Shown here: piece after piece, positions 15,601 through 32,737 of the stretch | Layout: each line of letters starts with the position of its first letter | Position numbering within the stretch: the stretch's first letter is position 1 | Virus record (IMG/VR): IMGVR_UViG_3300032297_000628 | Span: 1-35,183 of that record | DNA from: a virus | DNA length: 35,183 nucleotides | Direction: 5' to 3' (one strand) | Notes under the pieces: model-generated | What the model was told of the DNA's origin: nothing | Database searches by the model: none | The model's input: only the letters and a program-made list of their open reading frames with translations | Program-made: the position numbers and the translations under genes

Positions 15601-18600
15601 TGCCCTAGCGTCAAAAGTTGTAGCATCACCATCAAAGGTGATAGGAATAGTATTATCTAAACCAACAGCACTGATAACCAATGTATCAGTAGCTGTAGTC
15701 ACATCAACAGCAAGACCGAAATTCAAACCAGGTCCTGGAACTGGGTTAGAAATAATCTGCGTTAATACAAATTGTCCGCTTTGTTTGTTATATATTGCTA
15801 CCTTACCGTAGGCCAAATCTTCAGACTTAGCATATGGAGCAGAAACAAATAACTTGTCACCATAAGGGGACACTTTTACAGTGTGTCCAAATTGTCCAGT
15901 TTTATCAAACGGAGAATAAATGACCTGCGATGGCGTTACAAAATTTTCATTTAAAAATACTGAAACAAATCCTGTACCAGTATGCCATCCTGGTGCTCCT
16001 ATAGCAATGGTATTAGCATCATAAGAACCACTGATACTTTGTCCCCATAAGCTACCAACATTTAATGTCACTGGAGAATTAATTTCTATGCCGGTTGGAT
16101 GGGCTGAGATATTTGTAGAAGTGCTGGTGCTAGACAATCTATAAGCATAGACATGTCCGGTTCCAGTATTTGATGTTCCAGGAGCACTGATTAATAATGT
16201 CTTAACACCTTGATTTTTTTCTACGTACAATGTAGATCCAAAACGGTTATAATTTGCAGGAGTAGGATCTAATAAAAGTAACTCAGTTACTTCTGTTTGT
16301 AATAAAGTATCAATGCTACTAATTTTAACTAGACCTGCTTGAGTTAATGTACTAGCTGCTTCTGTACCTGTTGAATATCTTACACCACCAGAACCTGATA
16401 AAGTTCTACCTTTGGTATTGCTAACAGCAGGTGCTCCGCTGATAAACAATCCGTAGCCAGTGCTGTTAAATTCATAATCGTCATAGACAACACTGAATCC
16501 TAACTCTGTAGCACCGTTGCCAGTGTAATAAGTTTTATCGTTGGTGTTTACACCATAATTGAATATAGGTGTTATTTCGGTGCCGTTTACTGAATATGCA
16601 AACACACGACCGAGATCTGAATCTCTACTGTAGGTTGTAGCTCCCACCATGGCAATGTTGCTGTCATTTAGTTTAGATATGCTCCAACCTAAATTTTGAT
16701 TGCTAGGTGATTGACTGCTACTTAATTTACGAGAATTATAATTTGCAGTCTTTTGATAGACAGTCCATTTACCTGTGCCGTTATCATCTACCCATAATTT
16801 GCTGCCATAGGGCATTTTTAATAACGCAGAATCAGACGGGATATCATCAAATTTAGCAAACCGCTTGCTGTTAAATTTAAATAATAATCCTGGATTTACC
16901 AATCCTGTATCTTGAATGAAAGTAGCCTCGGTAGAAACACTGAACTTATTATAGTCAATTATTTCTTTGACTCGATATATTCCATCGATTTGATCGCTGA
17001 ATTGAATGATGCTTACTAACTGATCCTTGTTTAGATTGTGAGGCAAATCCGTAGTAATTACCATGTCCACACCCGGATCATTGATATATACTCCCATGAC
17101 TCGAGCATAGGCACGTTCATATCTCACTACATCCCAATCTGTTGCGGATTTAAATCCAATCCAGAATGTTTCACCTTCATTGATTGATCTGTTGTTGGCA
17201 ATATCTAAAATACTGAATTCATTGTAGGCTGTAACATCAACATCATCTAAGCGAACATATCCTGCTGTGTTTAATTCATATTCAACATCGGCAAATGTTT
17301 CGTCTTTGGTAATAAAACTAGAACTAGCAGAATAATCTTGAGGTTTGATTACAATTGCAGAAGACGTAGTATAGCAAATTAAATCATTGCTAATCACAGG
17401 TTTAGTATCAACAATTCTAATTGTCTGTGGATTCTCAATAAATGTGCCTTCGACTAGAGGAAACTCTAATTCTTTGTATGTCTGGTATGAGCCATAGAAT
17501 CCAGTTCTAAATGCCCACTCTTCAGTGAATCCAATTTGGCCTTGTTTATTTTGTAAAGTTGCCTTGGCAATTTTATCTACAGCGTTCTTTGTACCTTTGT
17601 CTTTGATAAAGCCTTGGTAGAATTTATATTGACTAATCGGGTCAATGATAATATTGTTTAGATATACACGAGGAGTATAACCGATTAAGTGTTGTGCCAT
17701 CTTTTGTTGGGCACTGTCAAAGTTGTCAATGTCTAAACTATAGAAATCTTCAAACTGATTGATCTTATAATCAAAATTAGGGATAAGTTCAGATGTAGGT
17801 TTTCCGTCAAGGATTACCCATCCATCGGATACATTAAAATCTTTTTTGCCAGGAATACCAAATTTAGCTGAATAGTAGTTTCCAGTAACCCTTACCACAT
17901 CTCCGTATTTGTAATCAACAAATTTTGTCCAAGTTTGAACCTTGGCGGAGTCATATACAAAACCTGGACTAAAATAATCACCATTCCAATTGGCTGTTTT
18001 AAATCCAACTAATCTCATTCGTCTCTGACGATAACCTGTTTCAATGTCAAAAATAACGTCATTGAAGATTGTCTTATTATCAAACACCATGCCGTGCTCT
18101 TTTTGCACAGTTCTTATGTTAGCATAATAAATGCCATCAGTTGTGTTTACCGCAGAAATAATACATTCTGTTTCTTGACGATTAACACTGATGTTTTGTT
18201 TTGCTAGTGGAGTACCGTCTGCTTTCAACAAATTATATTCATAATAATTATTGAACATGTTGTCTACAACAGAGGTAGAAGAAATAAATTTAATACTTTC
18301 TGCAAAAGGGCTCAGAGTAATAATACTACCGTCTGACCAATTTTGAGTTGTCCAATATAAAAATTCTTTGGCTGTAAAGTCCCAATCTATTACAGAGTTG
18401 AGTTCGGCATTAAATCCATCAAACACAAATCCTTGAACAGTTAGATAATTTCCATACCCAACAATAAAATCATAGACTTCTTGAATTGAGTTGAAGAATG
18501 ATCCGTAAGGAACATTGATAACATCGTTGGTAAATCTACCAACACTTTGTACCACGGCGCCGCCTACAGTAGGCAGATAAGGTAACTGTGAGTAATATGC

Positions 18601-21600
18601 AGGATTAAATGTTGCTTCAGATCTATGACTTACTGCTACTCTATAAAAATTATTACCATACTTGACTATCTGACCTTGTTGATAATAATTTCCAGTTGGA
18701 GCAGAACTAGCACTGACTTGATCAATCGCTGATAAACCAGTAGCACCATTTGTTGCAGAATAATTCCATGTAACATAAGGCTCACTGATTCCTCCTACAG
18801 TAATCGTTGGAGTATTTTCATTTCTAGAAATTCCACTGATTTGGAAATAAGGACTGTATCTATTATATCCCTTAACTGAAAATTTACCGCTTAACTTTTG
18901 AATAACAATACCAGATATAGAAATAGATCCATTAGGATTGCTAGAGTTCAAAATTAAATTGTAATTTTCAGGAGGCAATAAACTACCAGGATCAGTGGAC
19001 TGCGGAGAAATTGCGTCAATAACAACTCTCAGTTTATCTTTGCTGATAAATCCACCAACTTTATGGAACAAATTAAAATTTAGATAAGCAAGATCATTCT
19101 TTAACTTACTGACATAATTTCTATTTTTTTGTACTCCAGACTCGACTACATAGACACCATAGCCTGCGGCTAAGATTCCATTGTCTGAATGTATTTCTAA
19201 ATTTTGAGGATTTAAAAATTCATTTAAATCACCATAACTCCATTGACCTGCAATATTTTTTGTTATTCTGCTGGTGTCAAACATTAGAGAACAGTACTCA
19301 GCAGGTCTAGTCAATGCTAGAAGACGTTGAACAACAAACGGCCAGTAGCTACTACGGCGCCAGCTTGCTTCAACTGGTCCTACATCTCCAAAAGTCCAAC
19401 TTTGTCTTTGATCTGCATTGCCAGAATTTGAAATAATAAATCGAGTAGGATCAACCAGATTACCTTGATTGTCTACAGGAAGGCAAGTGCTCAAACCTGG
19501 ACGAGCATATAAAGGATTTATTCCTTGGCGGTTACCTTGACGTATTACCCCTGCTTCAATGTCATCCCATAAAATCTCATTGCCGCTGGTATAAGGAGCT
19601 GGACCGTACTCATCTTCCCACCACGTTGGCTTATCTGAAAAGCCTAACATTTCCCAAGGCTTCAAATGCGGTGCTTCGGAATCGTAAAAATACTTGTAGA
19701 TGGCTCTCCAACTACCGAATAATGTTTGAGTAGTTAGGTTGCTATAAGTACCTGCATAGTTCCATGTGAAAGGATCTTCACTGTCAAAAGAATCATTTGT
19801 TTGATAATCAATGCCAAAAATTCCCGCCCATTTAATGAAATCGATTTCAAGGATCTGATTTATTTCTGTAGCAGAATAACCAGTTTTTCTAAAAGCACCT
19901 GGAATTACAGAATGATAGTCAAATAAGTTATTTTTGTATTCAACTTTGATATTATTATAAATTCTTTTTTCAAGTTCTAATACAATGTTATCTCTGTAGT
20001 CGCCATAGGCTAACATTATACTACCATCGTGACATTGTATTACTGATTGAGGTCCAGATACAAACGTGTCGTCAACATATAATGTTGGTCTAAATTTTGG
20101 ATATAGACCCAGCTTGCTAGGAGTTGACGGAACATAACAACCTTCAGTGGTTTCATAATCAACAACAGTGATCACATCACCTTTTACTAACGGTACTAAA
20201 AATTCTACAGAACTATCAGTTTCTAAAAATATGTAATCAAGATTGTACAATGCTTGAACACCGTTGATATAAACTAACACAGACCTCAAACTTAGATTAT
20301 TCAAATTATAATCTGATGTTATAGGATATATGATATTACGACTATCTGTAACGGTCCAAGTTCGGACATTTTTATTTTGTCCGTAGGCAACCATGTCACT
20401 GTAAAAATATGGTGAAGTTAGATTTTTATCGTTGTTTATTTCTTTGAGAATTACATCAACTGCTGTAATAAAATCTGTGGCATTTGAATATTCAGATGCC
20501 TTTCTCAAGAACGCAAATTTAAATTGATTATAATCGTCAGATGCTTGTTGTATAGCTGCGATTGCATTATGTTCTACATTGCCAATAAACATAGAAGCAA
20601 ATGCTATAGGATTAGCATTGGCAATTAATCTAGTTCCATAAGAGTCTATTGCGGGCAAATCTCTTACATTACTTGCACCTGGAAACACTCCTGCCCAATC
20701 TGAATCTCGATTGATCATTGTGTTTAAGTGATCACTGACTTCACTTAATGTCAAACTGGCAATATTTCCGTTCAAAGGATTATTTGTTAAGCCTAAGGGA
20801 ACTTCATAATATCCGTTACTGTTAGCAGGTTTATCGGTATAGAGTTTGAACAACACATCGCTGTTAACTGCAACTTCGTTGACAAAGCTGACAAACAATT
20901 TTCCATTTTTCTCTGTCAATGAAAAATCATCTTGAAGTAATTTTACATCATCGACATAGATATCTAAAGATACGTTAGATTTTTTAGGACCATTAATAGA
21001 GTTAATTTCTATTTCAGATGTTGCAACAGTGGTCGATTGAAATTGCAGAACTGGTATTTTATATTGTTGAGAAACAGTCCAAATATTGACAAATCTATCG
21101 CCGGTACTTTCAGAATATTTTAGATATGATGCAGATGTGGGAATAGTAATCGACTGAGCAGTTGTATCATTGCTGTTTACATGAATAAATTCTTCTGTGG
21201 CAAAATAATTCTTGAATAGGTAGCTGCCTACTCCTACACTATTTTTATACTTTAAAGGAAATCCTAGAACACTGTCCGGCTTGCCTGTACCTACTTCATA
21301 TCCAAATATTTGATTTCCAGCAAAACTGGTCAGGTGATAATCTCTATCACTGTAACTGTCTCCGGCATTATCAAATAAATCAAATAAGGGAGGTTGATTT
21401 AATGTTGTATGTTGTTGTGCATATATCCATTCGCTGCCATTAAACCACCAGCTAGTTCCAGAATAAGTATCACCTAGGTTAACACTTATAGATGATTTTT
21501 TAGCTGGAAATTCTGTATCCACAGCTAATAACTGAACTCGACGTTTTTCATTTATGATAAGAAAATTAACTTCATAAATTTTACCGCGAACCGAAGGGTC

Positions 21601-22989
21601 AAAATCAGCATTAAAAATCACACGCTGACCTTGTTGTAGTTTTATTCCGTCAACCCAATATCCGCCAGACCCTTCTACAATGCTAAACGCATCGGTGGTA
21701 TCTGTGTCTATCAAATCAACGTTAGGTGCCGCTACATTACCAAAATTGTATAGATGGAGATTAGCATTAAATTCTATAATAGGTCTTTGTGCTCTTTTAT
21801 TTGCAGGATAGACTGCTTCATTGCCGTTGGCCACAGCAGATGCAAAAATTATATCAGAATGTACCCATCTATTGTATCGAGTCCAGGGATTAAGATCTCG
21901 ACTGCCTCTATTAATGGTAATGTATTCTGGATTGATAGGTAATTTTTTAAAGTTGTCAAACGGATAATCGTCGAAATCATTAGCATCAAAGTTTTCATTA
22001 AACTGTGTAGCTATATTTGTTTGACCTGTTAGTAATTCAAAATCAATTAGCTGGATAGACTGTCCAACACCTTCAACAAAAAATTCTTTGCCTTGATATT
22101 CTGCAGGCAATACTGTTCCTAGGAATCTAATTTTCATTCCATTAGAAAACTTTACACCATTACCTGAAGTATAATTCTTTTTACCAATAACGTCTTTTTC
22201 AATATCGATGGTTGTATTTTCATCTGCGGCTTTGACTACTAACTTACCATAAAATGCAGGATCATCCGATGCATAATATAAAGTTGCAGGAGTATTTGCA
22301 TCAACTACAATTTTAATTGTTCCTGTAGATGTACCGTTATTGGTAGCAGGATATAAATCAGCCGACGCTAGACTCGGAGCTGTTTTAATGTATAAATTGT
22401 TAATTGAATTAATTTGGAAATAATAAGTGTTGCCTCTGTACAATGTAACCAAGGGATTGCTGGTTAATCCGTCTGGAGAGAAAACAAATGCCGTATTAAT
22501 TTCATTGTCGGTTACCTGATATGTACTGGTACTGTTTTTAGGAGCACCTGTTACAGAAATTGTATCGGGGCCGTTAACCAGCCAATAATATTGTTGATAG
22601 TTAACAAACTTATCTATGTCAATCTGTGGATCAAATGAATAATGTTCCGAACGATATAATCTATCAAGGTTATCAACGATACCACCTTGAAGAGCGATTT
22701 GATTTGTTAGATCATCAAATGCAACAACTTTTTGAACTTCGGTGCCTGTATTATAAACAACCAATGCAGGTTCTAAATTGTAATCTCGGCGCAGGTTTAA
22801 AGATTCAGGAATATAAACATCACTGGTATTATTATAAGTCGGAGTAAGTTTAGAACCAATATAACCGTCAACACGTTCTAATTGAGCTGGTTGTAATAAC
22901 TGGTCAATAGTGCTAGACAGAAACTTTTGATTTTTTTCTGTGCGTAAAATTTCGGGCAATAATTTTACAGACTTAATATTTTTTGCCAT
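9601..22989 (-). CDS. Giant tail/baseplate structural protein, 4462 aa, in the gene 7 position
   Basis: A single uninterrupted frame takes up about 38 percent of the window, starting one base after the gp6 stop, where T4 has gene 7 (1032 aa). The N-terminus (KSVKLLPEILRTEKNQKFLS) is followed by a degenerate cupredoxin-like segment (178-253). Small modules of the type V-x-V-x-x-NG-x-x-x-x-x-x-DY recur near residues 675, 900, 3420, 3730, 3816, 3963 and 4070. Seven FG-GAP-like repeats at about 2098-2535 should form a beta-propeller, and paired GxGY...AP repeats lie near 2925-2990 and 3290-3355. The C-terminus is hydrophilic (ENGTPLLTENDEPLLGP). I see no signal peptide, transmembrane span or catalytic motif. 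A very large wedge or peripheral baseplate/fibre protein is the likeliest role. Equivalence to gp7 is positional inference, not a visible match. Confidence 0.72.
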   Translation of the reverse strand: MAKNIKSVKLLPEILRTEKNQKFLSSTIDQLLQPAQLERVDGYIGSKLTPTYNNTSDVYIPESLNLRRDYNLEPALVVYNTGTEVQKVVAFDDLTNQIALQGGIVDNLDRLYRSEHYSFDPQIDIDKFVNYQQYYWLVNGPDTISVTGAPKNSTSTYQVTDNEINTAFVFSPDGLTSNPLVTLYRGNTYYFQINSINNLYIKTAPSLASADLYPATNNGTSTGTIKIVVDANTPATLYYASDDPAFYGKLVVKAADENTTIDIEKDVIGKKNYTSGNGVKFSNGMKIRFLGTVLPAEYQGKEFFVEGVGQSIQLIDFELLTGQTNIATQFNENFDANDFDDYPFDNFKKLPINPEYITINRGSRDLNPWTRYNRWVHSDIIFASAVANGNEAVYPANKRAQRPIIEFNANLHLYNFGNVAAPNVDLIDTDTTDAFSIVEGSGGYWVDGIKLQQGQRVIFNADFDPSVRGKIYEVNFLIINEKRRVQLLAVDTEFPAKKSSISVNLGDTYSGTSWWFNGSEWIYAQQHTTLNQPPLFDLFDNAGDSYSDRDYHLTSFAGNQIFGYEVGTGKPDSVLGFPLKYKNSVGVGSYLFKNYFATEEFIHVNSNDTTAQSITIPTSASYLKYSESTGDRFVNIWTVSQQYKIPVLQFQSTTVATSEIEINSINGPKKSNVSLDIYVDDVKLLQDDFSLTEKNGKLFVSFVNEVAVNSDVLFKLYTDKPANSNGYYEVPLGLTNNPLNGNIASLTLSEVSDHLNTMINRDSDWAGVFPGASNVRDLPAIDSYGTRLIANANPIAFASMFIGNVEHNAIAAIQQASDDYNQFKFAFLRKASEYSNATDFITAVDVILKEINNDKNLTSPYFYSDMVAYGQNKNVRTWTVTDSRNIIYPITSDYNLNNLSLRSVLVYINGVQALYNLDYIFLETDSSVEFLVPLVKGDVITVVDYETTEGCYVPSTPSKLGLYPKFRPTLYVDDTFVSGPQSVIQCHDGSIMLAYGDYRDNIVLELEKRIYNNIKVEYKNNLFDYHSVIPGAFRKTGYSATEINQILEIDFIKWAGIFGIDYQTNDSFDSEDPFTWNYAGTYSNLTTQTLFGSWRAIYKYFYDSEAPHLKPWEMLGFSDKPTWWEDEYGPAPYTSGNEILWDDIEAGVIRQGNRQGINPLYARPGLSTCLPVDNQGNLVDPTRFIISNSGNADQRQSWTFGDVGPVEASWRRSSYWPFVVQRLLALTRPAEYCSLMFDTSRITKNIAGQWSYGDLNEFLNPQNLEIHSDNGILAAGYGVYVVESGVQKNRNYVSKLKNDLAYLNFNLFHKVGGFISKDKLRVVIDAISPQSTDPGSLLPPENYNLILNSSNPNGSISISGIVIQKLSGKFSVKGYNRYSPYFQISGISRNENTPTITVGGISEPYVTWNYSATNGATGLSAIDQVSASSAPTGNYYQQGQIVKYGNNFYRVAVSHRSEATFNPAYYSQLPYLPTVGGAVVQSVGRFTNDVINVPYGSFFNSIQEVYDFIVGYGNYLTVQGFVFDGFNAELNSVIDWDFTAKEFLYWTTQNWSDGSIITLSPFAESIKFISSTSVVDNMFNNYYEYNLLKADGTPLAKQNISVNRQETECIISAVNTTDGIYYANIRTVQKEHGMVFDNKTIFNDVIFDIETGYRQRRMRLVGFKTANWNGDYFSPGFVYDSAKVQTWTKFVDYKYGDVVRVTGNYYSAKFGIPGKKDFNVSDGWVILDGKPTSELIPNFDYKINQFEDFYSLDIDNFDSAQQKMAQHLIGYTPRVYLNNIIIDPISQYKFYQGFIKDKGTKNAVDKIAKATLQNKQGQIGFTEEWAFRTGFYGSYQTYKELEFPLVEGTFIENPQTIRIVDTKPVISNDLICYTTSSAIVIKPQDYSASSSFITKDETFADVEYELNTAGYVRLDDVDVTAYNEFSILDIANNRSINEGETFWIGFKSATDWDVVRYERAYARVMGVYINDPGVDMVITTDLPHNLNKDQLVSIIQFSDQIDGIYRVKEIIDYNKFSVSTEATFIQDTGLVNPGLLFKFNSKRFAKFDDIPSDSALLKMPYGSKLWVDDNGTGKWTVYQKTANYNSRKLSSSQSPSNQNLGWSISKLNDSNIAMVGATTYSRDSDLGRVFAYSVNGTEITPIFNYGVNTNDKTYYTGNGATELGFSVVYDDYEFNSTGYGLFISGAPAVSNTKGRTLSGSGGVRYSTGTEAASTLTQAGLVKISSIDTLLQTEVTELLLLDPTPANYNRFGSTLYVEKNQGVKTLLISAPGTSNTGTGHVYAYRLSSTSTSTNISAHPTGIEINSPVTLNVGSLWGQSISGSYDANTIAIGAPGWHTGTGFVSVFLNENFVTPSQVIYSPFDKTGQFGHTVKVSPYGDKLFVSAPYAKSEDLAYGKVAIYNKQSGQFVLTQIISNPVPGPGLNFGLAVDVTTATDTLVISAVGLDNTIPITFDGDATTFDARATTFHSTLENTGRVYLYSRKDQKFVLGDKLSPDSNISGVEYGRTVVANDDAIYVGASAFSNVSTASAWYQFSEIDPNVEVWDNFRYQDNSVDIDQFQKISLYDSFNDKVLDYLDVIDPLKGKIAGLAEQEITYKSNFDPAVYSVGNNNTTVDTDTSWIEEHVGELWWDLSAVKFLWYEQGDLIYRKNNWGKIFPGATIDIYEWVKSEYLPSEWSVLADTPAGLTEGISGQPKYVDNSVVSVKQTFDSSTRSYRNFYYYWVKNSVLIPNVANRRISSYQVASLIADPTSYGYKYAAFLDSDALSLSNVGNTLIGSRININIATDIVNNKIPRHTEWILIQEGDADSRPTTLLEKKLFDSLLGRDSLGNLVPDPSLSDRVKYGLGIRPQQTLFKNRSEALRNLIEFTNSKLIKEQLTGNYNLENFLAQESYPDKALNEWDELIEDNEGLLLIDTTLLEQAELTCTVSNGKIRGVTIVKTGNAYKVAPTVKIVGSNQTAVISTEIDAFGKVIKANIVDAGEGYSDSAPPELTVRPYTVIVLADNLYNGKWTVFSWNVDTAAWDRVRTQKYNVPLYWRYIDWTSDDYNKFIDYAYTVDELYQVNTLLDLVEGDYVRIKNSGDGLAIILEKTATGEVGTFDDDFNLVYKQNGTIQISDGVWNTVESRTAFDSNNSYDQTLFDQTVDLELEYMLKGLKKDIFINEFKINWNLFFFKAVKYALSEQKLIDWAFKTSFINVTNYAGDLDQRPVYKLQNTQYYEDFLKEVKPYHTQIRAFTVNHSVLEPTRSYTTDFDLPAYYNKDVEQFQPITLNSDLINTYPWKGWKDNHTYSVGSISVGSGGSGYVLAPDVKIVAVNGDDGFGATAKAYISSGAVSQIVVTNKGQGYKQAPLVVLTGGGDSSIVPAVVYAQLANEKVRVNKIGMKFDRISGYNQTGGNLVNDEFNCNGIQTDFVLNWLADPDKASVEVKLNGRYILKSDYTIKYYTETYNGYDKKYSKVSFLNYAPANYQTLSVKYKKAVSSLHAAERILSYYTATSGMPGLDMPQLMTGLEYPRTQLQTLKFDYTTKWDLETSTYGETSWADDVSGYVETTLGASSTATSKVLTLTTTSGISLYQYVNVINTVTNAFADNEVTVTAINTASRQITVSSPLVTNLSTGSVVEFWSYNSNFNILDTAIDGGYWSSGTNGPVLMDALGINPEDVIVDGDGFYTPNTSFGPEEFVPGESADAIGISVYTRPASGAPLVYSGYTNVYANQYTEAPLGIVPPSFNSLVVTFNGKIYEYYAEDVFPPGIDDEIYTVDWDNNLIRLGRQSSPGVLGWTIVTVGGEGVIDNSIVYSSYSTSTQVESRAAFADIKDAFVTVNGNPITANTNTVGIAYYELTRAGPTNGRAAVNVYNLSQFSTSTVQAYFLNNVAKQYNYIREQLEAADGATAIALDTNSPVSSLGPLAPQYIVEVNEGSEFGVGYRRLLPPYTTYYNVSNPRNRTFAIEFRRPRVNPTYSIENVRVYVNGISIRPGFDYSVNDTTDEVTIANGILQAGDVVAILSKLTGEWDYDIIGTTLVLAAPVPIGRLIKIISFNDSDQMLIRTERFLGNVLKKFKISRQVLNTNYVWVSVNGMPLVNKIEYSVLSDGVTIQVSDSVPIDANDEIVIMSVSNQVNNAGIVGYRVFNDIFGRTAFKRLSTEDSTILSQPLSFTDTEIHVANSAVLTQPNPSKKIPGVILIDGERIEFYKTQGNVLKQLRRATLGTSPSQYCEAGTKVIDYGVNQTVPFTERKLVQNHITTSTTDTYVISTLTTVTNVLYGDGITLSSNLVGASLADQVQVTYGGRLLRKTGIFYHDTTVAYDSPEFTLVGTTSTYSRLPFTSTNVIGDAYIVEDTNKVWVYTNSVNTDAVNGFVYRGLNWSGPEFSISSTTTHAVKLLIEQGVSDNVKLTITKKEFDSSDVWNDVVSSIETKSILDSTTAQAQFLQERHAELPDNYYYGGDNQIESENGTPLLTENDEPLLGP

Positions 22990-22990
22990 C

Positions 22991-25900
22991 TTAACTTCCG
23001 GTACTTGTAATAATGTTTGTTGTATTGATCTGAGACGCAGTTAATGCGTCAATGATTTCAATGTCTGAAACTGTGGCGCCGCTGATAAAAATTTCATTGG
23101 TTAAACAGGTTACTTCGTATAAACTACCAAAATTATTAACTTTAGGTACAATTACAAAGTTAGTGATATAAGGAGTCAGTGAATTCATAACATACGTAGA
23201 TAGTTCACTGAAATTAAATGTTTGTCCAAAATCCCAGTTTTCTAGGGCAAAGAAATTATTAATAGCATCTAAGATTTTAGTTTTTAAATCATTATCACTG
23301 GTAGGAATTGTTGAATTTCTTACTGCCTTAAATGTAGCTTGTAAATTAATGTTTGCTTTGCTGCCAAAAAGAACTTTATACTTAACAGGTTGGAAAATAA
23401 TTTCATCGCTGATAGTTTTCATCGATTCTAAATCACTGGAATAACTGTTTTCTAAACTTTGACTAGTGGGTGACAAAGGCTCTATACCTGTGCCAGCTGT
23501 GAGCCAACTTCTATATTGACTATCATAATCTGCGGTTAACATATAGATGTCAACAATATTGCTCTTGCTAGGATCTATTCTACGATCTTCTCCACTGTTA
23601 TGTACATAGTGGAATTTTAATCCACTGCGACCAGGATAGGCAAAATAGTCAGGTTCATAAATCCAAGGAGTTTTACCGGCTGCTAAGGTAGCAGTTGAAT
23701 AACTTTTTACGGCATTTGTATCTTGATTGTAGAAATAAAATAATTCACCGTCGGCAGGAGTAATATTAACTTCTGATTCAGAAGGATAAGCTAAAATATT
23801 TGTTGCAGTTAATTGATAGCGGAGACCGTCTGACATCTTTTTAAAGTAAACAAACTTGTCTCTATACCCAGTATAGGTACTGGTAGATACTGGTTCTACA
23901 ACATTATTAAACGCATCTGGGTTAGATATTTTGCCGCCGCTGTTAAAATCATAAAAACTAATTTTAACTTTTTTAGGTTCTACGTAGCCATCTTCTTCAA
24001 TGACTGCATCATCAATTTGCCATTTGTAATCAACGCCTAGACTTCCGTATGTAGAAGTGTTTACAGCGCCTAAAGGATTAAAAGCTGTATTAATTGACAA
24101 TACATCAATTTGATCTTTGATCACTGTATTGTTTACATAATCAAAATTGATATTATTCTTTTCGGCATAAAACGCAGTTTCTTGTTCACTTTCAAAAATG
24201 TAATCAGTTAAGCGATATCTAACTTTATAGTTAATACCAGACCACACAAATGCCAGCAACCAGCTTGCATCGCGGCCAGTGTTGGAAACATCCCCTTGAT
24301 ACTCTAAACTAAAATTGTTGATAAGATTTAAATTTGTATCAGCAATAATAGTCCAAGAACGAGAATCTGCATCAAAAGCAAGACCAAAATTTCTTTGTGC
24401 AAGACACAGGTCTGCAATTTCACTTTCTAATGCATAAGAAAATATGTTTACAAATTTAGGAATAATTTCAATAGGTACTGCATCAGATGGTACAATGTCA
24501 GCTAACACTATAGGACCAGTACCATCATCTAATAAGCCCTTGCCGCTGTTGGATCCATCACCAACTACCTGTGATACTTTAGACCAAATATAGGTTTTAG
24601 AAGTTTGACTCTGGTTAGATACTATTGTGCCTTTTGATGAAAAATAACCCGATGTTGTTGTAAATTTTATCAACGAGCCAGCATTCAAATATTTTAAATT
24701 GTTGCCTGTAAATGCGCCTACTTGCACAGGCGACTGCGTAGAAGTACTGTAAAAATAACCTCTGCTATTTGTAGAATTTTTACTGGCCTGTACCCAAGAT
24801 AGGCTCAAATAATCAAGAGTAGGACGCTCATACTGATCAAGATAGAATGACCTCATAGACGAGCTAGCCACGATAGGCTCTATGGTATCTTTGAGAACAC
24901 TGAAAATCTCGTTTCTATTTTGGAAACTAAATTCAAAAACTTCTTCTTTGTTGTCTTGATAAATGATTCCGTCATTGGCAAAAATATTTGTTTTACTGTA
25001 CTTGCCGCTGACATCGCTTAGATCAAAGTATTTGCTAAGGCCGCTGGTAATTCTGTTAACTGATTTAACTTTGAGAATGTTATTGCTCAATGTCAAAGGA
25101 GCAATATTATAATCTTCAGCAGTTACCATTCTATTTTGTGTGTAATAGGCCTGTGGTGCTTTGCTTTGAATATCAGCATTAGATTCTGCGCCAGCACTGT
25201 TGCTAACTGTATACTGCAAACTTAGAGTTACATTTAAAACGTGTTGTTGACCTATTTTATTGTAGTAAGGAATTTCAATGGCTATACTGCCCATTTGCTG
25301 AGGCTTGATAGTATAAAATAATCCATTACTTTGTCTATAAATTAATCTGAATTGACCTTTAGGCAAATTGCCGAAGCTGCCGTCTGCAAAATTTAAATCA
25401 ATTTGATCTAAGTTTCTAGAACTAACACTATAGATATTTCTTTCATCTTTGTTAAGACTATTATAAATGATGTTGTTTCCAGTAACACTAGGAACTTTGG
25501 TCCACAATGTAGAATAATTACCGTTGTTATCTAACTGCCATAACCATACATCGCTGTCGTTGATGTTGGCTGTGTTGATGCCAACAATCTCGTTAGGAAC
25601 AGGATTATCAATTGAGAAACTCGATAATCCTAGTGCACCTTGTCTAAAGTGGAAGAAAAATCCTGTGTTGCTACTTCCCGAACCCTGATTGTCGTTTTTA
25701 TAAACATAACTAAAAGAATTTCCAGGTTTAGGAGCTTCTTCATAAATCGAAGTTTTACCAAAGAAGCTACAGCTTGTAACTTCAAAAGGCATGCCTGTTC
25801 CGCCAATATTTTTCAAAAAGCTATAAATGGGTACGTCGGAGTTGGCGCTGTTGATTCTATATTGCTCAGTTAAAATTCCATCTATAGTGTCTCGACCATA

Positions 25901-26416
25901 AGGTTTTCCAAAAACATAAGCACCAGACATGGTAGAATTCATTATAGATACAAACTGCTGATACCAATTACTGTTTGTGCTGTCGTTCCAAGCAACCACA
26001 GTATTTGCCAGATTTGTTCCGTTAGAATCATAGACAGCATCAGTTGTTGAAACTGCTGTAATTTTTAAAAAACCGCTGGCAGGAACATTACGAGTAGGGC
26101 TATAACTGACCAACTGTGCCAAACGTAGAATACTGTCACGGCGCTGTGCTGTTTCTAAGAAATTTTCACGAGCATTTAAATCAATTCGGAAACTTAGATT
26201 TTGTCCCAGATAAGCAATTAAGTCAATAAGAGCAATATACTCACTGCTCTCAATAAAATCATTGAAGTCTTCAGGATAATTTTCCTGAAGGTATTGAATC
26301 ATTACACGACGGATCGTTTCAAAGTCGTAGCTTTTGAAATCGGCATTGCGGTAGCTTTGGTAGATTTTCTTCCAATCCTCTGCTACTAATAGTTTACTGT
26401 TGGTTGATGGAATCAT
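22991..26416 (-). CDS. 6: Baseplate wedge protein gp6-like, 1141 aa
   Basis: In T4, gp6 dimers form the inner ring joining the wedges around the hub. The N-terminus here is characteristic: LLVAEDWKKIYQSYRNADF, YDFETIRRVMIQYLQENYPE, SSEYIALIDLIAYLGQNLSF, RENFLETAQRRDSILRLAQL, SYSPTRNVPASG. The family's central motif appears in VTAEDYNIAPLTLSNNILKV. The C-terminal end (residues about 1045-1110, with NDLKTKILDAINNFFALENW and NFSELSTYVMNSLTPYITNF) matches the J-like end of gp6. The protein is about 480 residues longer than T4 gp6 (660), with extra beta-rich sequence in the middle. The gene follows gp25 in transcription order, and an AATAAATA late-promoter-like element lies 20 bases upstream of the ATG. 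Identification is strong. Confidence 0.92.
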   Translation of the reverse strand: MIPSTNSKLLVAEDWKKIYQSYRNADFKSYDFETIRRVMIQYLQENYPEDFNDFIESSEYIALIDLIAYLGQNLSFRIDLNARENFLETAQRRDSILRLAQLVSYSPTRNVPASGFLKITAVSTTDAVYDSNGTNLANTVVAWNDSTNSNWYQQFVSIMNSTMSGAYVFGKPYGRDTIDGILTEQYRINSANSDVPIYSFLKNIGGTGMPFEVTSCSFFGKTSIYEEAPKPGNSFSYVYKNDNQGSGSSNTGFFFHFRQGALGLSSFSIDNPVPNEIVGINTANINDSDVWLWQLDNNGNYSTLWTKVPSVTGNNIIYNSLNKDERNIYSVSSRNLDQIDLNFADGSFGNLPKGQFRLIYRQSNGLFYTIKPQQMGSIAIEIPYYNKIGQQHVLNVTLSLQYTVSNSAGAESNADIQSKAPQAYYTQNRMVTAEDYNIAPLTLSNNILKVKSVNRITSGLSKYFDLSDVSGKYSKTNIFANDGIIYQDNKEEVFEFSFQNRNEIFSVLKDTIEPIVASSSMRSFYLDQYERPTLDYLSLSWVQASKNSTNSRGYFYSTSTQSPVQVGAFTGNNLKYLNAGSLIKFTTTSGYFSSKGTIVSNQSQTSKTYIWSKVSQVVGDGSNSGKGLLDDGTGPIVLADIVPSDAVPIEIIPKFVNIFSYALESEIADLCLAQRNFGLAFDADSRSWTIIADTNLNLINNFSLEYQGDVSNTGRDASWLLAFVWSGINYKVRYRLTDYIFESEQETAFYAEKNNINFDYVNNTVIKDQIDVLSINTAFNPLGAVNTSTYGSLGVDYKWQIDDAVIEEDGYVEPKKVKISFYDFNSGGKISNPDAFNNVVEPVSTSTYTGYRDKFVYFKKMSDGLRYQLTATNILAYPSESEVNITPADGELFYFYNQDTNAVKSYSTATLAAGKTPWIYEPDYFAYPGRSGLKFHYVHNSGEDRRIDPSKSNIVDIYMLTADYDSQYRSWLTAGTGIEPLSPTSQSLENSYSSDLESMKTISDEIIFQPVKYKVLFGSKANINLQATFKAVRNSTIPTSDNDLKTKILDAINNFFALENWDFGQTFNFSELSTYVMNSLTPYITNFVIVPKVNNFGSLYEVTCLTNEIFISGATVSDIEIIDALTASQINTTNIITSTGS

Positions 26417-26463: not shown

Positions 26464-26901
26464 TTATTGCACGGTCAACCCAACTTTTTGGTCAAATGTT
26501 AGTCGCATATTAGACGATTGGTTAGTTCCGACTAATTGTAAAGTTATCTCAATTAGAAATCCTGAATCATATTCCACAACATCAAGTTGTGTAGGAACTA
26601 CTCTAGGATCAAAATTACAAATAGCTTCAATGTCTTCTTTAAGAATAGTTCTAATTTCTTCAGTCAATGGTTCCATTAACAATGACCATATAACACTGCC
26701 GAAACCGGGATTCATAACACGCTCGCCTTTGCGTGTGTTAAAATGATTTAAAATATCTTGTTTGATAATATCAAAATCAAAAAGAGTGTTTTCAGATCTT
26801 GTAGGATCAACTGTGCTGAACCCTTTATAGAACTGACTTTGTTTTAGTGCAGATTGTTGTACTACCTGCTTTTCACCGATTTCAATATTTTTGTATGGCA
26901 T
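26464..26901 (-). CDS. 25: Baseplate wedge protein gp25-like
   Basis: The product is a GpW/gp25 family protein, which in T4 anchors the sheath to the baseplate wedge next to gp6 and gp53. The 145 residues compare well with T4 gp25 (132). Signature segments are the N-terminal FYKGFSTVDPTRSENTLFDF, the core IKQDILNHFNTRKGERVMNP, then GFGSVIWSLLMEPLTEE, IKEDIEAIC-like KEDIEAICNFDPRVV, and a closing strand pair ending FDQKVGLTV. The conserved ExxxR-type motif near KGERVMNPGFG is intact. No clear Shine-Dalgarno sequence precedes the ATG; instead an AATAAATA element lies 7 bases upstream, in the gap after the gp5-like gene. Gene 25 directly before gene 6 makes sense because both proteins are in the wedge core. 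Confidence 0.93.
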   Translation of the reverse strand: MPYKNIEIGEKQVVQQSALKQSQFYKGFSTVDPTRSENTLFDFDIIKQDILNHFNTRKGERVMNPGFGSVIWSLLMEPLTEEIRTILKEDIEAICNFDPRVVPTQLDVVEYDSGFLIEITLQLVGTNQSSNMRLTFDQKVGLTVQ

Positions 26902-26922: not shown

Positions 26923-29013
26923 TTATGCTACGAAAGTTCCGCCGGCTTGTTTGTAATAACTGACAGCTTCAGCATATCGTTTTGGATTCTGTCCATAAGG
27001 ACTGCCTGGAAGACTGGCCCAAACATTTTTACATTTTTCAACTGCTTTTGTAAAGTTTCCAGCTTTAACATCAGTTAATGCGCCTCTCCTTTGAATCAAG
27101 TATATGGCTGCTTTGTCTTGATTAGGAGGACTAAAGTCTGTTAGAGCCAATGCACGTTTGCACTCATTCCATGTAGAATATAAGAACTGATAGGCTCCTG
27201 CCGCAGTTGATGTCACTGGCTTACCGTTAATCTTAGCAGTATTAGCTATGTTGGGATGTTCAGCATAGCTACTAAACAGTTTACCTGTGTACATGGTCTT
27301 GAAACCATCTGATGTATACGTACCTTCACAGACTCGAATCATCCACAGGAATGCGGCAATGTTATCTTGCTCTACATTGCCTGTTGGATCAGGTGCAGTT
27401 CCTTTGGTTGCTGGAGGATTTTTATAGGTCACTGATATTGTTTGAGGAGTAGAATTATCTAAATTTACTTCTGAAAATGCATTTGGTGCAACATTTTCAT
27501 GATGATCCCAAGGCTCATGTGTGGGTACACGACGCATGGTACTTACTATGTCATCTGCTTTATAAAACTTACCGTCACTCCATCCTGCAGAAGATTCTCT
27601 GTTTGGTAGAGTATATGTATTAAGTCTAGTGCCTTCTTCAGCGGCATCGGCTGCTGTGGCAGCAACAGCTTTGTCAGCAGTAGGACCATTCATATGAATC
27701 CTTGAAGCAGTTTCATAATAGATACCACCTGCGTTAACATGGAAGTCACCACCAGAAGACTGTTTGATTTTTCCATCAGATTTTAAATCCATATTTCCTA
27801 CACTGGTCTGATAAGAGTTTGCACCGGAATTAATGTGCAGATCTGCGGCTGCTGTTTGATGCATTTCACTCTTGGCATTTAAATGTAGATTACCGTCTGC
27901 CTGAAGTCTAAGTTCTGATCTACCTATGATGTTACCGTTATTTCTAAAATCTATTTTTCCATCTTTATCACAGATGAGAGTAAAATCTTCAACACAATTA
28001 ATATCTACGGAGCCAAAACTGTTGATGTTTACACTGCGGCCGGCTTCGATGTTTACGTCGCGATCTGCTCTAAAATTAAAATCTACCTTGCTGTGTATGC
28101 TTACACTGTCTTCAGCATAGATATCAATCTTTCCGTTGCCGGTTAATTCGATCCAAGCAGTTCCTTGACCGTTGGCAATGTAAATTAAATCGTGACTGTT
28201 GTGTAACAGTATCTGATGACCTGTTCTAGTTCTAATTCTTACCAGCTCGCTTTGACCGTTAGAGTCGCCATCATCCATGACAAATGTGGTTCCACCAAGG
28301 CGACTCACCGGTGCTCTAATTCCCCCATTTTTTGTGCCGATGGTGCCGTGTTTGGCTCCATCGCTGGTATCTTTAGGTCCCGGAGTACTAATACCAAATA
28401 CTTGGCTAGGCGTCTCACGTCTTGCACCACTGGTTGTTACACCTCTAATAGTGTCTGCAATAAGACCCTGTGCCAGCAATCTTTCAGCAAAAGGATGCAC
28501 AGGCTTAGATATTCTATTAGGGTTAGGTATTTCTAACTTCTCAGTAGATTTGTTAAATTCTGCCACAGGCAGCATTGTAGTTCCGTATTTTCTTTTTTGT
28601 TCAGGAGTGATAGAAGCATTTTTAGTGGCTGCTATCCCCGGTACCATATGATTTTGGAATTCATCTTGAACGCAACCGATCCAATAACCTTGATTAGGAT
28701 CTCCGTCAACAAATATGACCATCACAGTAGAACCGTAGTCTGGTGGTACCATCCACATACCATAGCTTTTTTGTACGTCATTGAAGTCGCTGGAATTGTT
28801 TCCTTCAAATTTAATTGAAGTTACACCGTAGAAAGGACTTAGATATCTCACAGGTAAGGCGGCACCTTGTAATACTGTAGATCCAGTAATACCTTGTTTT
28901 AATACTACTTCTAATCCTCCCATATATGTAGGATCAAGATGGTTTGTAACCACTGCTAAGAATGGTCCTGATTTTCCTAAATTACCTAAAACTCTTTTTT
29001 GTATGCCTGACAT
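26923..29013 (-). CDS. 5: Baseplate hub spike gp5/VgrG-like protein with C-terminal lambda-R-type murein transglycosylase
   Basis: Likely the central spike that pierces the outer membrane and opens the peptidoglycan during infection. Residues 14-125 are an OB-fold hub domain (FLAVVTNHLDPTYMGGLEVV, VPPDYGSTVMVIFVDGDPNQ, GYWIGCVQD). Residues about 240-445 are a gp5/VgrG-type beta-helix with short repeated strands (DIYAEDSVSIHSKV, DVNIEAGRSVNINSFGSVDI). Residues about 548-696 resemble the phage lambda endolysin R: E563 in VCEGTYTS (lambda SEGT), LFSSYAEHP, STAAGAYQF, ALTDFSPPNQD, IQRRGAL, CKNVWASLPGSPYGQ. In T4 gp5 the lysozyme is a different fold and lies between the OB domain and the helix; here the enzyme is at the end. 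The catalytic Glu is kept, so activity is expected. The start is 3 bases after the previous stop. Confidence 0.9.
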   Translation of the reverse strand: MSGIQKRVLGNLGKSGPFLAVVTNHLDPTYMGGLEVVLKQGITGSTVLQGAALPVRYLSPFYGVTSIKFEGNNSSDFNDVQKSYGMWMVPPDYGSTVMVIFVDGDPNQGYWIGCVQDEFQNHMVPGIAATKNASITPEQKRKYGTTMLPVAEFNKSTEKLEIPNPNRISKPVHPFAERLLAQGLIADTIRGVTTSGARRETPSQVFGISTPGPKDTSDGAKHGTIGTKNGGIRAPVSRLGGTTFVMDDGDSNGQSELVRIRTRTGHQILLHNSHDLIYIANGQGTAWIELTGNGKIDIYAEDSVSIHSKVDFNFRADRDVNIEAGRSVNINSFGSVDINCVEDFTLICDKDGKIDFRNNGNIIGRSELRLQADGNLHLNAKSEMHQTAAADLHINSGANSYQTSVGNMDLKSDGKIKQSSGGDFHVNAGGIYYETASRIHMNGPTADKAVAATAADAAEEGTRLNTYTLPNRESSAGWSDGKFYKADDIVSTMRRVPTHEPWDHHENVAPNAFSEVNLDNSTPQTISVTYKNPPATKGTAPDPTGNVEQDNIAAFLWMIRVCEGTYTSDGFKTMYTGKLFSSYAEHPNIANTAKINGKPVTSTAAGAYQFLYSTWNECKRALALTDFSPPNQDKAAIYLIQRRGALTDVKAGNFTKAVEKCKNVWASLPGSPYGQNPKRYAEAVSYYKQAGGTFVA

Positions 29014-29016
29014 AGT

Positions 29017-32000
29017 TTATGTTGTATATTTTAATAATGGGTTTTCCGAAGATTTAGACCCTAACTTCAACGGTGCTGAACTTGCAAGATTAGCTCCTGT
29101 GGCCACTGTTTGTCCTACAATGTTTTGTACTCCAGAAAGATTTGCTTCAACTGAAGTTTTAAGACCTGTTATATTTTGATATTGTTGACTGTTGGCTAAT
29201 AACTTACCGCCTTGAGCTGCGGCATCGGATAAACTCTTGATAGGTAAAGAACTTAGAGGGTTAGTTAATTTATTAGCGGATGATAGTATATCTGCTTTAA
29301 GATTTGCAGGCACCGCTGAACCAGGAAGTTTATCTAAACTATTAACTCCAAAAGCCATTGCAAGGGCCAGTGGGCCACCACTCTTAACTAAATCTGCCAT
29401 GTCTGTTTTATTAACCTGAGGCAAAGGTGCAGTAACGTTAGGAGCCGTTGCCGGCAAGTTTGCCAATCTAGCTGAAGGAATATCTAAATTTAAACCTCGA
29501 TTCATAGCCGATGACAAATTAACATTTTGCGGAATAAGTTTGGTTGCACTGTCTACTTGATTTAAAAGGTTACTGACTTTATTAGAAGACAGGCCAGATA
29601 GTTGACTAGGATTAATTCCCAGCCTATTAGCCAATGCTTGTGTATCGCTGGGCAAACCTCTGGTAATTCTACTGGTTTGTGCCGCAATAGAATTAACTAG
29701 ATTAGCTGAACCTACTGTAGATCCTGCGGCTGCTAACAAATTATTTGTTTCACTGGCAGAGGCTGCTTGAGTTAAAGGACTAGATTGTGTGAACAAAGAT
29801 CTAGGTCCTGTTAGACTAGATCCTTCACCAATTCCTGAACCAGCTACTGCAACTTGATCAGTTACTGCCGCAGCCTTAGATTGTATTGAAGATGCTACCG
29901 CAGAAGATCCATTATTGAGATTAGTAGCATCACCTAATTGATTGATCTGCCCAGATGTTCCTAAATTAGTGGGAATAATCCCTGCAGTCTGTAATCGTAT
30001 ACCACCGGCTGATTGATCAGTACCACCAGGTATAGAACCCCCAAACACACTGGCTGCACTGGTTATTTTTCCAATACCGTTCGACACTCCACCACTGACC
30101 TGTTTTAATAAAGCCAGTGCAGTAAGTCCACCTCCTGCAACAGCGGCAAAGTTTCCTAGAGAAGGTAATCCTCGAGATAACCAACTAGGTAATGTTGCTT
30201 CATTTGCTCTTGAGCTAGGTGCATCAGCAGGAGAAGTATCAGGAGTTGTTTCGCTGCCCGGTTTAGTTGTTATCTCTCTGTTAGATACAATATCAAGAAT
30301 ACTAGATGTTTCAGTGTCTTCTGTTTCTAATTTTCCAGGAACCCTAGCTAATTGTAATTTTTGTTTAAAGGCACCTTCTCTAAAAGTGCTGACACATTTA
30401 AACATTCTATAGATGCCACTGAAGGGCACTTTATATTTTGAAAATTCTAACGATCCACCTTTTTCTAAAGGCAGGATATCTACAGGGTTTCTAAATGTAA
30501 TACTAATAAACTGTTCACCATATAATGGATTAATTTCAGCATCAGAAGTTTCACCGTTGTCCTTCGAAGCTAGTTTAGGATTATAATTACCCATACCAGC
30601 TGTTCCTAAGTATAAAGGATCACCTACAATTTCTACGTCGCAGGTTGTTAGAGCTTTGGCAGAATTAACAATAGCATTGTGCATATTCCTTGCTAATACA
30701 AAATACTGATCGTCTAACATTTGGCCGCCACTGCCGCCGGCGGGCTGTTGACCGTGTATGGATGTATCGGATAACCTTACAGCAATTGGATTGGGTTGAT
30801 ATAACTCAGAGAGTATATCTCCTTTAAATTTTTCTTGTGTTTTTCCTTCTTTGGCTGCGCCGGATTGTGCTGATACTTGATTACTTGTTCCGCCTGCAGG
30901 AGGAAGAGACTCATAGTAAAGGTTATTGTACTGAAGATTGAAAGTTAATATGTCTGAATTTTGTCCAGAATATAGATATTTGTAGTCTCTATGAGTAAGT
31001 CTTAATAAATTTGAAAGATTGGTTTCTTTTGATTTAAAATTAGGAATAGATGTAAAATGTACTTTCCAAGGAGTAATTACGTATCTATATTTTACAGGGT
31101 ACCTACCAGCAACAGGGTCCCATTGATCTTTAATTTCTGTTTCAATTCTACATAAGAAATAATTTACCAGTCCAAATCTGTTCATAACTCCAGGAACTTT
31201 GTTAGATAAATTTTTCAATAGGTCTCGACCAAATTCACTGTCTCTAATAACTGCGGCAATAAGAGCGTGTATTTGTGCAGACTCTTTAAACTGAATTGTT
31301 TGTTTTGAATTTCCTGTTCCAGGGGTTAATTTTAAATACTCCGGTTGGGCTTCTTTTTGATCGGCTGTAGGTTGTTTTTTACCCTGCTCGTTATAACCGG
31401 TAGCGGGAGTATTTGGATCAGCAGGATCAGGAAATTTGTAATTATTTTTATCTTTTAATATTTCCGATACTTTGGCTGCGCCCAATACATTAGGGTTGTT
31501 TTTATCGACTACCCATCCTTTGTCAGGATCAAGTTCAGGAAAAACAATTTCATATTCATCAAAAACTTTTACACCTGCTTTAATAGCCGATTCATTGGTC
31601 GTTATCTGTTCATTGAGATTTACCATTAGATCTTCTAATATTTCTTTAACTGTGCCACCGGTGATATTCACCGGTTGCTTGAGTTGATTAGAAACTCCAA
31701 ATCCTGTTTCGTTGAGTGGCGTGCCTGTTACACTGTATCTAGTACCACGTTCAGAAACGTCTACATCTATTGTATTAATTTGAAAAGGAATATATCGTGT
31801 AGTTCCTTCAATTGTTCTCGGTTCAGGAAAACTAGTTTGATCATTATCGAGATATCCTTTAAATTCTACAGCTAAAAGATATCGACCCTGAGTATGATTA
31901 GGGTAACCTGCAGATACTGACGCTACATTCAATGCTTCAATAAATCCGTTTACACTGAAAGGCTCAATTACTTCGAACCTAATTTGATTGGGCAAGGATG

Positions 32001-32436
32001 TGCTAGATTCTTGACTGAATCCTAGAAATGATGTAATTTCCAAAGCATCCATATACATGTCAAATCTACCAGGGCTATATTGATTAAAGCCAGTCGATGC
32101 ACCCAATGAATTAAAAGAAGATTTTGCAGCCGAAACTGCTTCAGTGGTAGGTTCAATATCAGTTGTGTATAAATCAGTGTATCGTTGTTGGGCTGCGGCA
32201 ATTGCCTCTGGGGAACTTGTTGACATTCCTTTAAGGCCTTTACCTCCAGATTTTAAAATTATGAATTCAGGATTAGATTTTCTATAGAGTGCAGGATTAT
32301 TTGCTTCACTGCGTTTAATTGAACTCAGAGTAAAGCCATAGGTATAAGATCTATAATTGTGTAAAACATTTTGTTTGACAGATTTTGATTTGGGTGATCT
32401 TTTACTTGTAACTACTAACTGAGCTAAATCACTCAT
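29017..32436 (-). CDS. Large baseplate hub/tail protein, possible gp27 analogue, 1139 aa
   Basis: I do not see a named T4 homologue with certainty. Residues about 1-705 are a folded structural region: FEVIEPFSVNGFIEALNVAS, YLLAVEFKGYLD, then VNYFLCRIETEI, YRYVITPWKVHFTSIPNF, LTHRDYKYLYSGQNSD, TTCDVEIVGDPLYLGTAGMG, and FSGIYRMFKCVSTFREGAF. This pattern, with the IVGDPLYL motif and the gene directly before the spike gene, suggests a gp27-type or late-control-D-type hub. After a Pro/Ser/Thr linker (about 705-755), residues to 1139 are low-complexity Ala/Ser/Leu/Asn-rich, with one hydrophobic glycine-rich segment (AAVAGGGLTALALL, near 765). A good ribosome site (AGGAG, 32443-32447) sets the start. 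Alternatives are a gp48/54-like or novel hub protein. Confidence 0.7.
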   Translation of the reverse strand: MSDLAQLVVTSKRSPKSKSVKQNVLHNYRSYTYGFTLSSIKRSEANNPALYRKSNPEFIILKSGGKGLKGMSTSSPEAIAAAQQRYTDLYTTDIEPTTEAVSAAKSSFNSLGASTGFNQYSPGRFDMYMDALEITSFLGFSQESSTSLPNQIRFEVIEPFSVNGFIEALNVASVSAGYPNHTQGRYLLAVEFKGYLDNDQTSFPEPRTIEGTTRYIPFQINTIDVDVSERGTRYSVTGTPLNETGFGVSNQLKQPVNITGGTVKEILEDLMVNLNEQITTNESAIKAGVKVFDEYEIVFPELDPDKGWVVDKNNPNVLGAAKVSEILKDKNNYKFPDPADPNTPATGYNEQGKKQPTADQKEAQPEYLKLTPGTGNSKQTIQFKESAQIHALIAAVIRDSEFGRDLLKNLSNKVPGVMNRFGLVNYFLCRIETEIKDQWDPVAGRYPVKYRYVITPWKVHFTSIPNFKSKETNLSNLLRLTHRDYKYLYSGQNSDILTFNLQYNNLYYESLPPAGGTSNQVSAQSGAAKEGKTQEKFKGDILSELYQPNPIAVRLSDTSIHGQQPAGGSGGQMLDDQYFVLARNMHNAIVNSAKALTTCDVEIVGDPLYLGTAGMGNYNPKLASKDNGETSDAEINPLYGEQFISITFRNPVDILPLEKGGSLEFSKYKVPFSGIYRMFKCVSTFREGAFKQKLQLARVPGKLETEDTETSSILDIVSNREITTKPGSETTPDTSPADAPSSRANEATLPSWLSRGLPSLGNFAAVAGGGLTALALLKQVSGGVSNGIGKITSAASVFGGSIPGGTDQSAGGIRLQTAGIIPTNLGTSGQINQLGDATNLNNGSSAVASSIQSKAAAVTDQVAVAGSGIGEGSSLTGPRSLFTQSSPLTQAASASETNNLLAAAGSTVGSANLVNSIAAQTSRITRGLPSDTQALANRLGINPSQLSGLSSNKVSNLLNQVDSATKLIPQNVNLSSAMNRGLNLDIPSARLANLPATAPNVTAPLPQVNKTDMADLVKSGGPLALAMAFGVNSLDKLPGSAVPANLKADILSSANKLTNPLSSLPIKSLSDAAAQGGKLLANSQQYQNITGLKTSVEANLSGVQNIVGQTVATGANLASSAPLKLGSKSSENPLLKYTT

Positions 32437-32437
32437 A

Positions 32438-32737
32438 TTAGACTCCTAACACAGTTTCGATAGTAGACATTTTTGGCAGATAGATTTGAATTCCAGCTTC
32501 TAAATCATAAACTGGATCTTTGATCACAGATTTATTTCTAACAGCAAACACCCACCATAGGTTAACATCACCATACAAATCGTAGGCCAACAAATCAGGA
32601 CGATGCTCATAGTTGCTGGTTACTTCAAATAATATATCGTCGACAAAGACTGGCAGATCTACATAAGACCAAGTATCAAGATATCCATTATCTTGACTGG
32701 TTTTAAAATAAGGACTGGTTCTGTTGTAATTGGCCAT
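32438..32737 (-). CDS. 53: Baseplate wedge protein gp53-like, 99 aa
   Basis: In T4, gp53 clamps neighbouring wedges together during baseplate assembly, binding gp6, gp7 and gp25. The conserved core is present here: HRPDLLAYDLYGDVNLWWVF, AVRNKSVIKDPVYDLEAG and a final IYLPKMSTIETVL. The N-terminal RTSPYF..SQDNGYLDTWSY also fits. The protein is about half the length of T4 gp53 (196), keeping the core domain and lacking the C-terminal extension; short versions are also seen in other T4-like phages. Its ATG shares the A of the preceding stop (TAATG), and AGGA lies about ten bases upstream, so it is coupled to the 285-aa gene. Confidence 0.86.
   Translation of the reverse strand: MANYNRTSPYFKTSQDNGYLDTWSYVDLPVFVDDILFEVTSNYEHRPDLLAYDLYGDVNLWWVFAVRNKSVIKDPVYDLEAGIQIYLPKMSTIETVLGV

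Follow-up and report, generated by a model that had tools for sequence, protein, structure and literature searches.

A putative lambda-R-type murein transglycosylase at the end of a contractile-tail spike, and the exchange of such modules among its relatives

Known spikes and the spike of the window

The usual picture of the cutting enzyme of contractile phage tails comes from T4, where a single lysozyme is fixed midway along the spike. T4 gp5 comprises an OB domain (residues 1-129), a lysozyme (174-339) and a helix (389-575), with gp5.4 as PAAR tip (PMC4576200). A C-terminal arrangement has also been described. RaK2 gp078, published in 2013, has a beta-helix followed by a lysozyme; mass spectrometry of RaK2 virions did not detect it (PMC3622015). 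CBB_240, with an OB domain, a C-terminal lysozyme and a possible M23 domain, was found in CBB virions, and CBB encodes a separate endolysin besides this hub lysozyme (PMC5259590). In addition, the baseplate hub protein gp15 of cyanophage A-1(L) contains a lysozyme-like domain (8KEA; PMC10966104). That lytic and baseplate proteins of phages are in general mosaic has already been published (PMC10684548). Within the open-access literature, the scope of our search, we found neither an account of family-wide murein hydrolase exchange at the spike tip nor a description of a spike carrying a GH104 enzyme.

Our analysis concerns a 35,183-nucleotide virus record (the window), whose spike gene has the following features.

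26923..29013, minus strand: hub-spike (gp5-like) gene, stop included; 696 aa, ATG start, intact ORF
28663..28968, minus strand: OB-fold hub domain, about residues 16-117 (Pfam Phage_base_V; Foldseek)
27604..28296, minus strand: beta-helix spike, about residues 240-470 (Pfam DUF2345; pLDDT about 80-94 from residue 280)
27493..27531, minus strand: conserved end motif RVPTHEPWDHHEN, residues 495-507 (alignment of 58 relatives)
27379..27492, minus strand: linker, residues 508-545 (low pLDDT; linker comparison)
26926..27378, minus strand: putative lambda-R-type (GH104) murein transglycosylase module, residues 546-696 (1AM7/3D3D match; fold model)
27325..27327, minus strand: E563 codon; this residue is the predicted catalytic acid, equivalent to lambda E19 (alignment to lambda lysozyme)

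As in central spikes of the gp5/VgrG type, an N-terminal OB domain is followed by a beta-helix. Phage_base_V matches residues 83-115 (E = 1.6e-4, just under the curated Pfam cut-off), DUF2345 identifies a VgrG-type beta-helix at residues 285-421 (E = 1e-5, likewise under the curated cut-off), and residues 16-430 match phrog_13211, 'baseplate hub subunit and tail lysozyme' (E = 5.8e-45). The full-length AlphaFold model, a monomer of mean pLDDT 72 with low confidence in the OB domain and in the region 118-240, has T4 gp5, VgrG and extracellular injection-system (eCIS) spikes among its Foldseek matches (E 1e-7 to 1e-4). The closest isolate relatives are jumbo myophages, namely Paride and PA5oct at 38% identity (for the hub of Pseudomonas phage Paride, over residues 16-444) and RaK2, 121Q, GAP32, CBB and others at about 25-31%. 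Searches of Pfam and PHROGs gave no lysozyme or other enzyme family between OB domain and helix, the place where a T4-type gp5 has its GH24 lysozyme. The window spike is a member of a jumbo-phage hub-spike family that lacks an internal enzyme and carries murein hydrolases after the beta-helix. It is probably the protein with which a contractile-tailed phage, itself probably a jumbo phage, punctures the cell at the centre of its baseplate.

This placement changes the main comparison drawn in the initial annotation, which was right in substance and had presented the enzyme as standing instead of T4's internal lysozyme. T4 gp5 shares with the window spike an OB fold, a beta-helix and a tail-borne murein hydrolase, but its enzyme has the GH24 fold and lies between OB domain and helix, whereas that of the window is of GH104 type and lies at the end. 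Closer in layout are RaK2 gp078, CBB_240 and 121Q gp587, which have a homologous OB and beta-helix core and a C-terminal murein hydrolase; in 121Q and CBB that enzyme is a T4-type (GH24) lysozyme after an M23-like domain, in contrast to the GH104 module here. With C-terminal lysozymes already known on RaK2 gp078 and CBB_240, the window spike is best described as bearing an interchangeable tip enzyme rather than as a T4 spike with its lysozyme replaced. In phage 121Q, a stand-alone T4-type lysozyme gene (L083:8659-9159) directly follows the spike gene, whose own product also ends in such a lysozyme.

The C-terminal module and its tether

The assignment of the spike C-terminus to the lambda R type is borne out by sequence and fold comparisons, with matches well beyond chance expectation. 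The last 185 residues match lambda lysozyme (1AM7/3D3D) with E = 5.8e-27, and with the whole spike as query residues 554-693 match the same gene R product with E = 6.7e-26; the module also matches phrog_90, 'endolysin' (E = 4.6e-46). Pfam and NCBIfam have no family for the module itself, a negative that is overruled by the PHROGs, PDB sequence and fold comparisons. An AlphaFold2 model of the module, built from 13 environmental sequences (mean pLDDT 92), lies nearest to lambda lysozyme 3D3D (Foldseek E = 3.5e-11, TM 0.80 by query and 0.85 by target, rmsd 1.8 A). Neither of the outcomes that the initial annotation had named as refuting, a profile search unrelated to lambda R or a structure lacking a lytic transglycosylase fold at 548-696, was therefore obtained. 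Pfam, PHROGs and PDB matches agree with the proposed order of OB domain, beta-helix and lambda-R-type enzyme, and every motif pair that the initial annotation listed (SEGT/CEGT, STGAGRYQ/STAAGAYQ, DFSP, RGAL, WASLPG..YGQ) is present in the alignment to lambda lysozyme. Its numbering of E563 was also correct; this residue aligns with lambda E19, and the catalytic glutamate and surrounding motif are kept in 16 of 16 aligned GH104-type tails. The boundaries required adjustment, as the span first given, 26923-27370, is not a whole number of codons, and the module that does lie there corresponds to residues 546-696, nucleotides 26926-27378.

Homology over the whole catalytic domain, the lambda lysozyme fold and the catalytic glutamate, on which assignment to GH104 rests, are all present. 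In addition, pairs of such modules in relatives have dN/dS values of 0.04-0.14, and the GH104 module is under strong purifying selection in these relatives. We infer catalysis from these features and treat the module as a putative virion-borne murein transglycosylase.

Before the module, the spike ends in a highly conserved segment. R495, P497, E500, P501, H505 and E506 are invariant in 58 relatives, and RVPTHEPWDHHEN as a whole is nearly invariant even in relatives that end shortly after it, a pattern of conservation suggesting that the needle may structurally end there. In the full-length model, the spike part and the enzyme are both confidently predicted, with pLDDT below 50 in between, at residues 503-536. 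Read most simply, 35-40 residues beyond the helix form a probable flexible tether. The enzyme likely sits at the needle tip, past the helix. The linker closes with GTxPxxTGNxEQDN (GTPPxKTGNxEQDN), a sequence common to GH104-bearing spikes.

The place of the enzyme at the tip also raises the matter of PAAR proteins, for which no gene was found in the window. Among relatives, PAAR tip genes occur directly downstream of spike genes with and without a C-terminal enzyme (L252:2044-2358; L259:5805-6110; L267:2777-3082), and the enzyme is therefore not a simple stand-in for a PAAR tip. Displacement of the PAAR tip by the enzyme was considered and rejected, as the GH19-labelled spikes L259, L260 and L267 and their near-copies L262 and L263 all have a PAAR gene just downstream and the two can thus coexist.

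Other tail proteins carry related domains in different settings. After lambda lysozyme, the nearest fold to the module is A-1(L) gp15 (8KEA; Foldseek E = 1.3e-5), in which the lambda-lysozyme-like domain lies near the N-terminus (56-265) and shares the chain with endoglucanase and peptidase domains, unlike the window spike. Pectobacterium phage ZF40 gp57 is, like the window spike, a tail protein with a GH104 domain; it was rejected as an earlier spike-GH104 fusion because its N-terminus matches tape-measure and tail-fibre families. The hubs of Agrobacterium phage Atu_ph07 and Sinorhizobium phage Phosso are more alike, with a C-terminal lambda-R-like domain that keeps the catalytic glutamate, but their cores are only 27-28% identical to that of the window and, unlike in the window, a trypsin-like domain follows GH104 (Pfam Trypsin_2 in Atu_ph07; by similarity in Phosso). 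This domain ends both proteins (L082:5905-8499 and L084:5914-9045, respectively), in Phosso after a very long Gly/Ser linker, and possibly serves self-processing. No description of this order of GH104 and trypsin-like domains was found in the Atu_ph07 paper (PMC6102473).

Exchange of modules after the end motif

Our comparison covers 151 distinct relatives, drawn from four IMG/VR scans and four isolate loci. The core and the (H)EPW..HEN end motif are conserved across about 150 relatives, and the sequence after the motif varies. By HMM label, this position holds a GH19 module of type a (48 relatives) or type b (7), an SLT-type transglycosylase (26), a GH104 module (15, one of them mislabelled) or no module (26), with combinations of modules as single cases; several further relatives were relabelled on reading the sequence. 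The mislabelled GH104 case, L239, reads as SLT-like plus CHAP-like. About 20 relatives on other contigs carry the spike-GH104 fusion. Searched against the PDB, the GH19 module profiles hit endolysins of the GH19 type (E = 1.2e-16 and 3.4e-25) and the SLT profile a lytic transglycosylase (E = 6.4e-51); the 121Q spike has M23-like and GH24 domains after its core. Several relatives lack any module, and the module is therefore not universally needed. The possibility that module-less relatives encode the enzyme as the next gene was rejected, as no stand-alone module gene was found beside them and the next gene was gp25 in nearly every case.

The trees point to exchange rather than descent. A tree of 108 cores requires at least 18 changes of module type, and a careful tree of 44 cores loses 121 log units when the GH104-bearing cores are forced into a single clade (p-AU 0.0003). 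The window itself provides an example, as its core is most like that of a GH19-bearing relative, L012, with identity falling from 62% (residues 1-444) through 51% (445-507) and 32% (508-545) to 19% (546-696). Against the GH104-bearing relative L003, identity is 53% over residues 1-444 and 63% over 546-696. The position just after the end motif is an exchange point at which different murein hydrolases, or none, are mounted. As relatives carry other enzymes or none there, the needle looks like a mount for interchangeable cutting tools. The initial annotation had spoken of replacement by a non-homologous enzyme; the data instead show that modules were exchanged repeatedly at the C-terminus, rather than one being substituted where T4 has its lysozyme. 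Lambda R and T4 lysozyme are, moreover, commonly assigned to a single superfamily of lysozyme-like proteins.

The exchange extends to a second scaffold, represented by three short gp5 homologues with an OB domain and the GH104 cassette.

L286:2596-3489: short gp5 homologue, OB plus GH104 cassette
L287:1243-2151: short gp5 homologue, OB plus GH104 cassette
L288:2605-3489: short gp5 homologue, OB plus GH104 cassette

These proteins lack a beta-helix, and the linker and GH104 module known from the beta-helix spikes follow immediately on an OB domain of T4 type (Pfam Gp5_OB, 4.8e-16). A hub gene adjoins, and their modules fall beside that of L003 on the tree (99/98). The common linker and module on OB-only and beta-helix spikes indicate that a linker-plus-enzyme cassette moved between scaffolds. 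A tree in which the GH104 modules of beta-helix spikes form one clade apart from the OB-only ones is allowed by the AU test (p = 0.21), and the transfer could therefore have run in either direction. The hub gene neighbouring the short gp5 homologue of L286 has a C-terminal peptidase-like region.

Some spikes carry further domains. In L058 (4555-5709), an SGNH-hydrolase-like domain lies inside the spike GH104, between the segment with the catalytic glutamate and the HP segment; similar domains follow GH19 in L071 and SLT in L074, and by reading lie mid-spike in L246 and L248. In L058, L071 and L074 the SGNH motifs are intact, with Pfam matches that are weak and below cut-off (best 6.5e-5); one guess is that the domain is an esterase partner for wall cutting. 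By reading, the 1170-aa spike of L242 has two GH24-like domains plus SGNH, and L241 has a lysozyme-like module of no assigned family.

Setting of the spike gene and the proposed role of its enzyme

The spike gene lies within a baseplate operon in the order gp53-like, hub, spike, gp25, gp6-like.

32438..32737, minus strand: gp53-like baseplate wedge gene (Pfam Phage_gp53 E = 1.1e-4; phrog_7145 E = 2.8e-25)
29017..32436, minus strand: probable hub partner, 1139 aa (phrog_11190, E = 3.6e-27)
26464..26901, minus strand: gp25-like baseplate wedge gene, immediately following the spike gene (Pfam GPW_gp25 E = 2.7e-12)
22991..26416, minus strand: gp6-like baseplate wedge gene (Pfam Gp6-like_1st E = 0.004, below cut-off; position)

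We consider it highly probable that the product is a central spike with a GH104 transglycosylase tethered at the needle end as an exchangeable cassette, and that it serves entry. A flexible linker would attach the lytic transglycosylase to the far end of the beta-helix needle and, with three chains per needle, up to three enzymes could be present at the tip. Sheath contraction would drive the needle through the outer membrane and place the tethered enzymes in the periplasm, where they would meet murein and cut its glycan strands, opening the way for the tube. The module of the window would be one copy of a cassette, made up of linker and GH104 domain, that spikes have passed among themselves.

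The module could alternatively be catalytically dead, or act mainly as a murein-binding or plug domain, and no report of activity was found for the hub lysozyme-like domain of A-1(L) (PMC10966104). We regard this as quite unlikely given the strong purifying selection on the module in relatives and the retention of E563 and its motif in all 16 GH104-type tails; moreover, binding alone hardly explains the recurrent choice of hydrolases with intact active sites. It is likewise quite unlikely that the module is a lysis endolysin made as a spike fusion, freed by proteolysis or internal initiation and used chiefly for late lysis. The isolate sequence relatives of the module are mostly lysis endolysins, and T4 gp5 itself is reportedly cleaved during maturation. 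However, the spike gene is inside the baseplate operon, spike GH104 modules form a group (98/95) to which lambda R, P2 K and other free endolysins do not belong, and the same position can hold modules from other fold families; CBB, moreover, has its separate endolysin besides the hub lysozyme (PMC5259590). This phage's own lysis endolysin was not seen, the record being a 35-kb fragment.

The framing of the initial annotation, in which a T4-like spike without its original lysozyme recently captured a prophage endolysin in a single event, draws on the close similarity of the module to lambda R and on the internal position of the T4 lysozyme (PMC4576200). It appears very improbable beside the roughly 20 relatives elsewhere that share the fusion, the grouping of their GH104 modules with a common linker, and the GH19 carriers without GH104 among the nearest cores.

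An entry spike with an exchangeable cutter would work like an evolved VgrG of type VI secretion, in which an effector domain after the beta-helix is likewise exchangeable among relatives; the comparison is one of function, not of family membership. Evolved VgrGs are bacterial weapons whose toxins have immunity proteins, whereas the window family carries virus entry enzymes, and the window, as a virus record, has genes of a phage baseplate and is no type VI secretion locus. More tentatively, and with a probability below even, the site after the end motif may be dedicated to the exchange of wall-cutting cassettes across unrelated scaffolds (jumbo-type beta-helix and T4-type OB) and tuned to host wall chemistry. 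The cassette carried would then help to determine which envelopes can be pierced, and such spikes would be the viral equivalent of evolved VgrGs. In this large and mostly uncultured phage group the spike stays while the cutter changes, with at least four families of glycan-cleaving enzyme in use and esterase-like or protease-like domains added occasionally. The variation amounts to a natural experiment for comparing how cutters suit host walls. No relative was found in 84,980 bacterial and archaeal genomes, which therefore give no hint on the host.

A relative of the window's hub family (phrog_11190; L335:1039-3429) has a GH104 domain at its own C-terminus, so that the hub partner is another possible carrier of the enzyme. 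Beyond its baseplate genes, the record holds a late sigma factor and metabolism genes. Its tail region includes a 4462-aa ORF (9601-22989, minus strand), and genes for dihydrofolate reductase and thymidylate synthase (2124-3481, plus strand) adjoin the tail genes.
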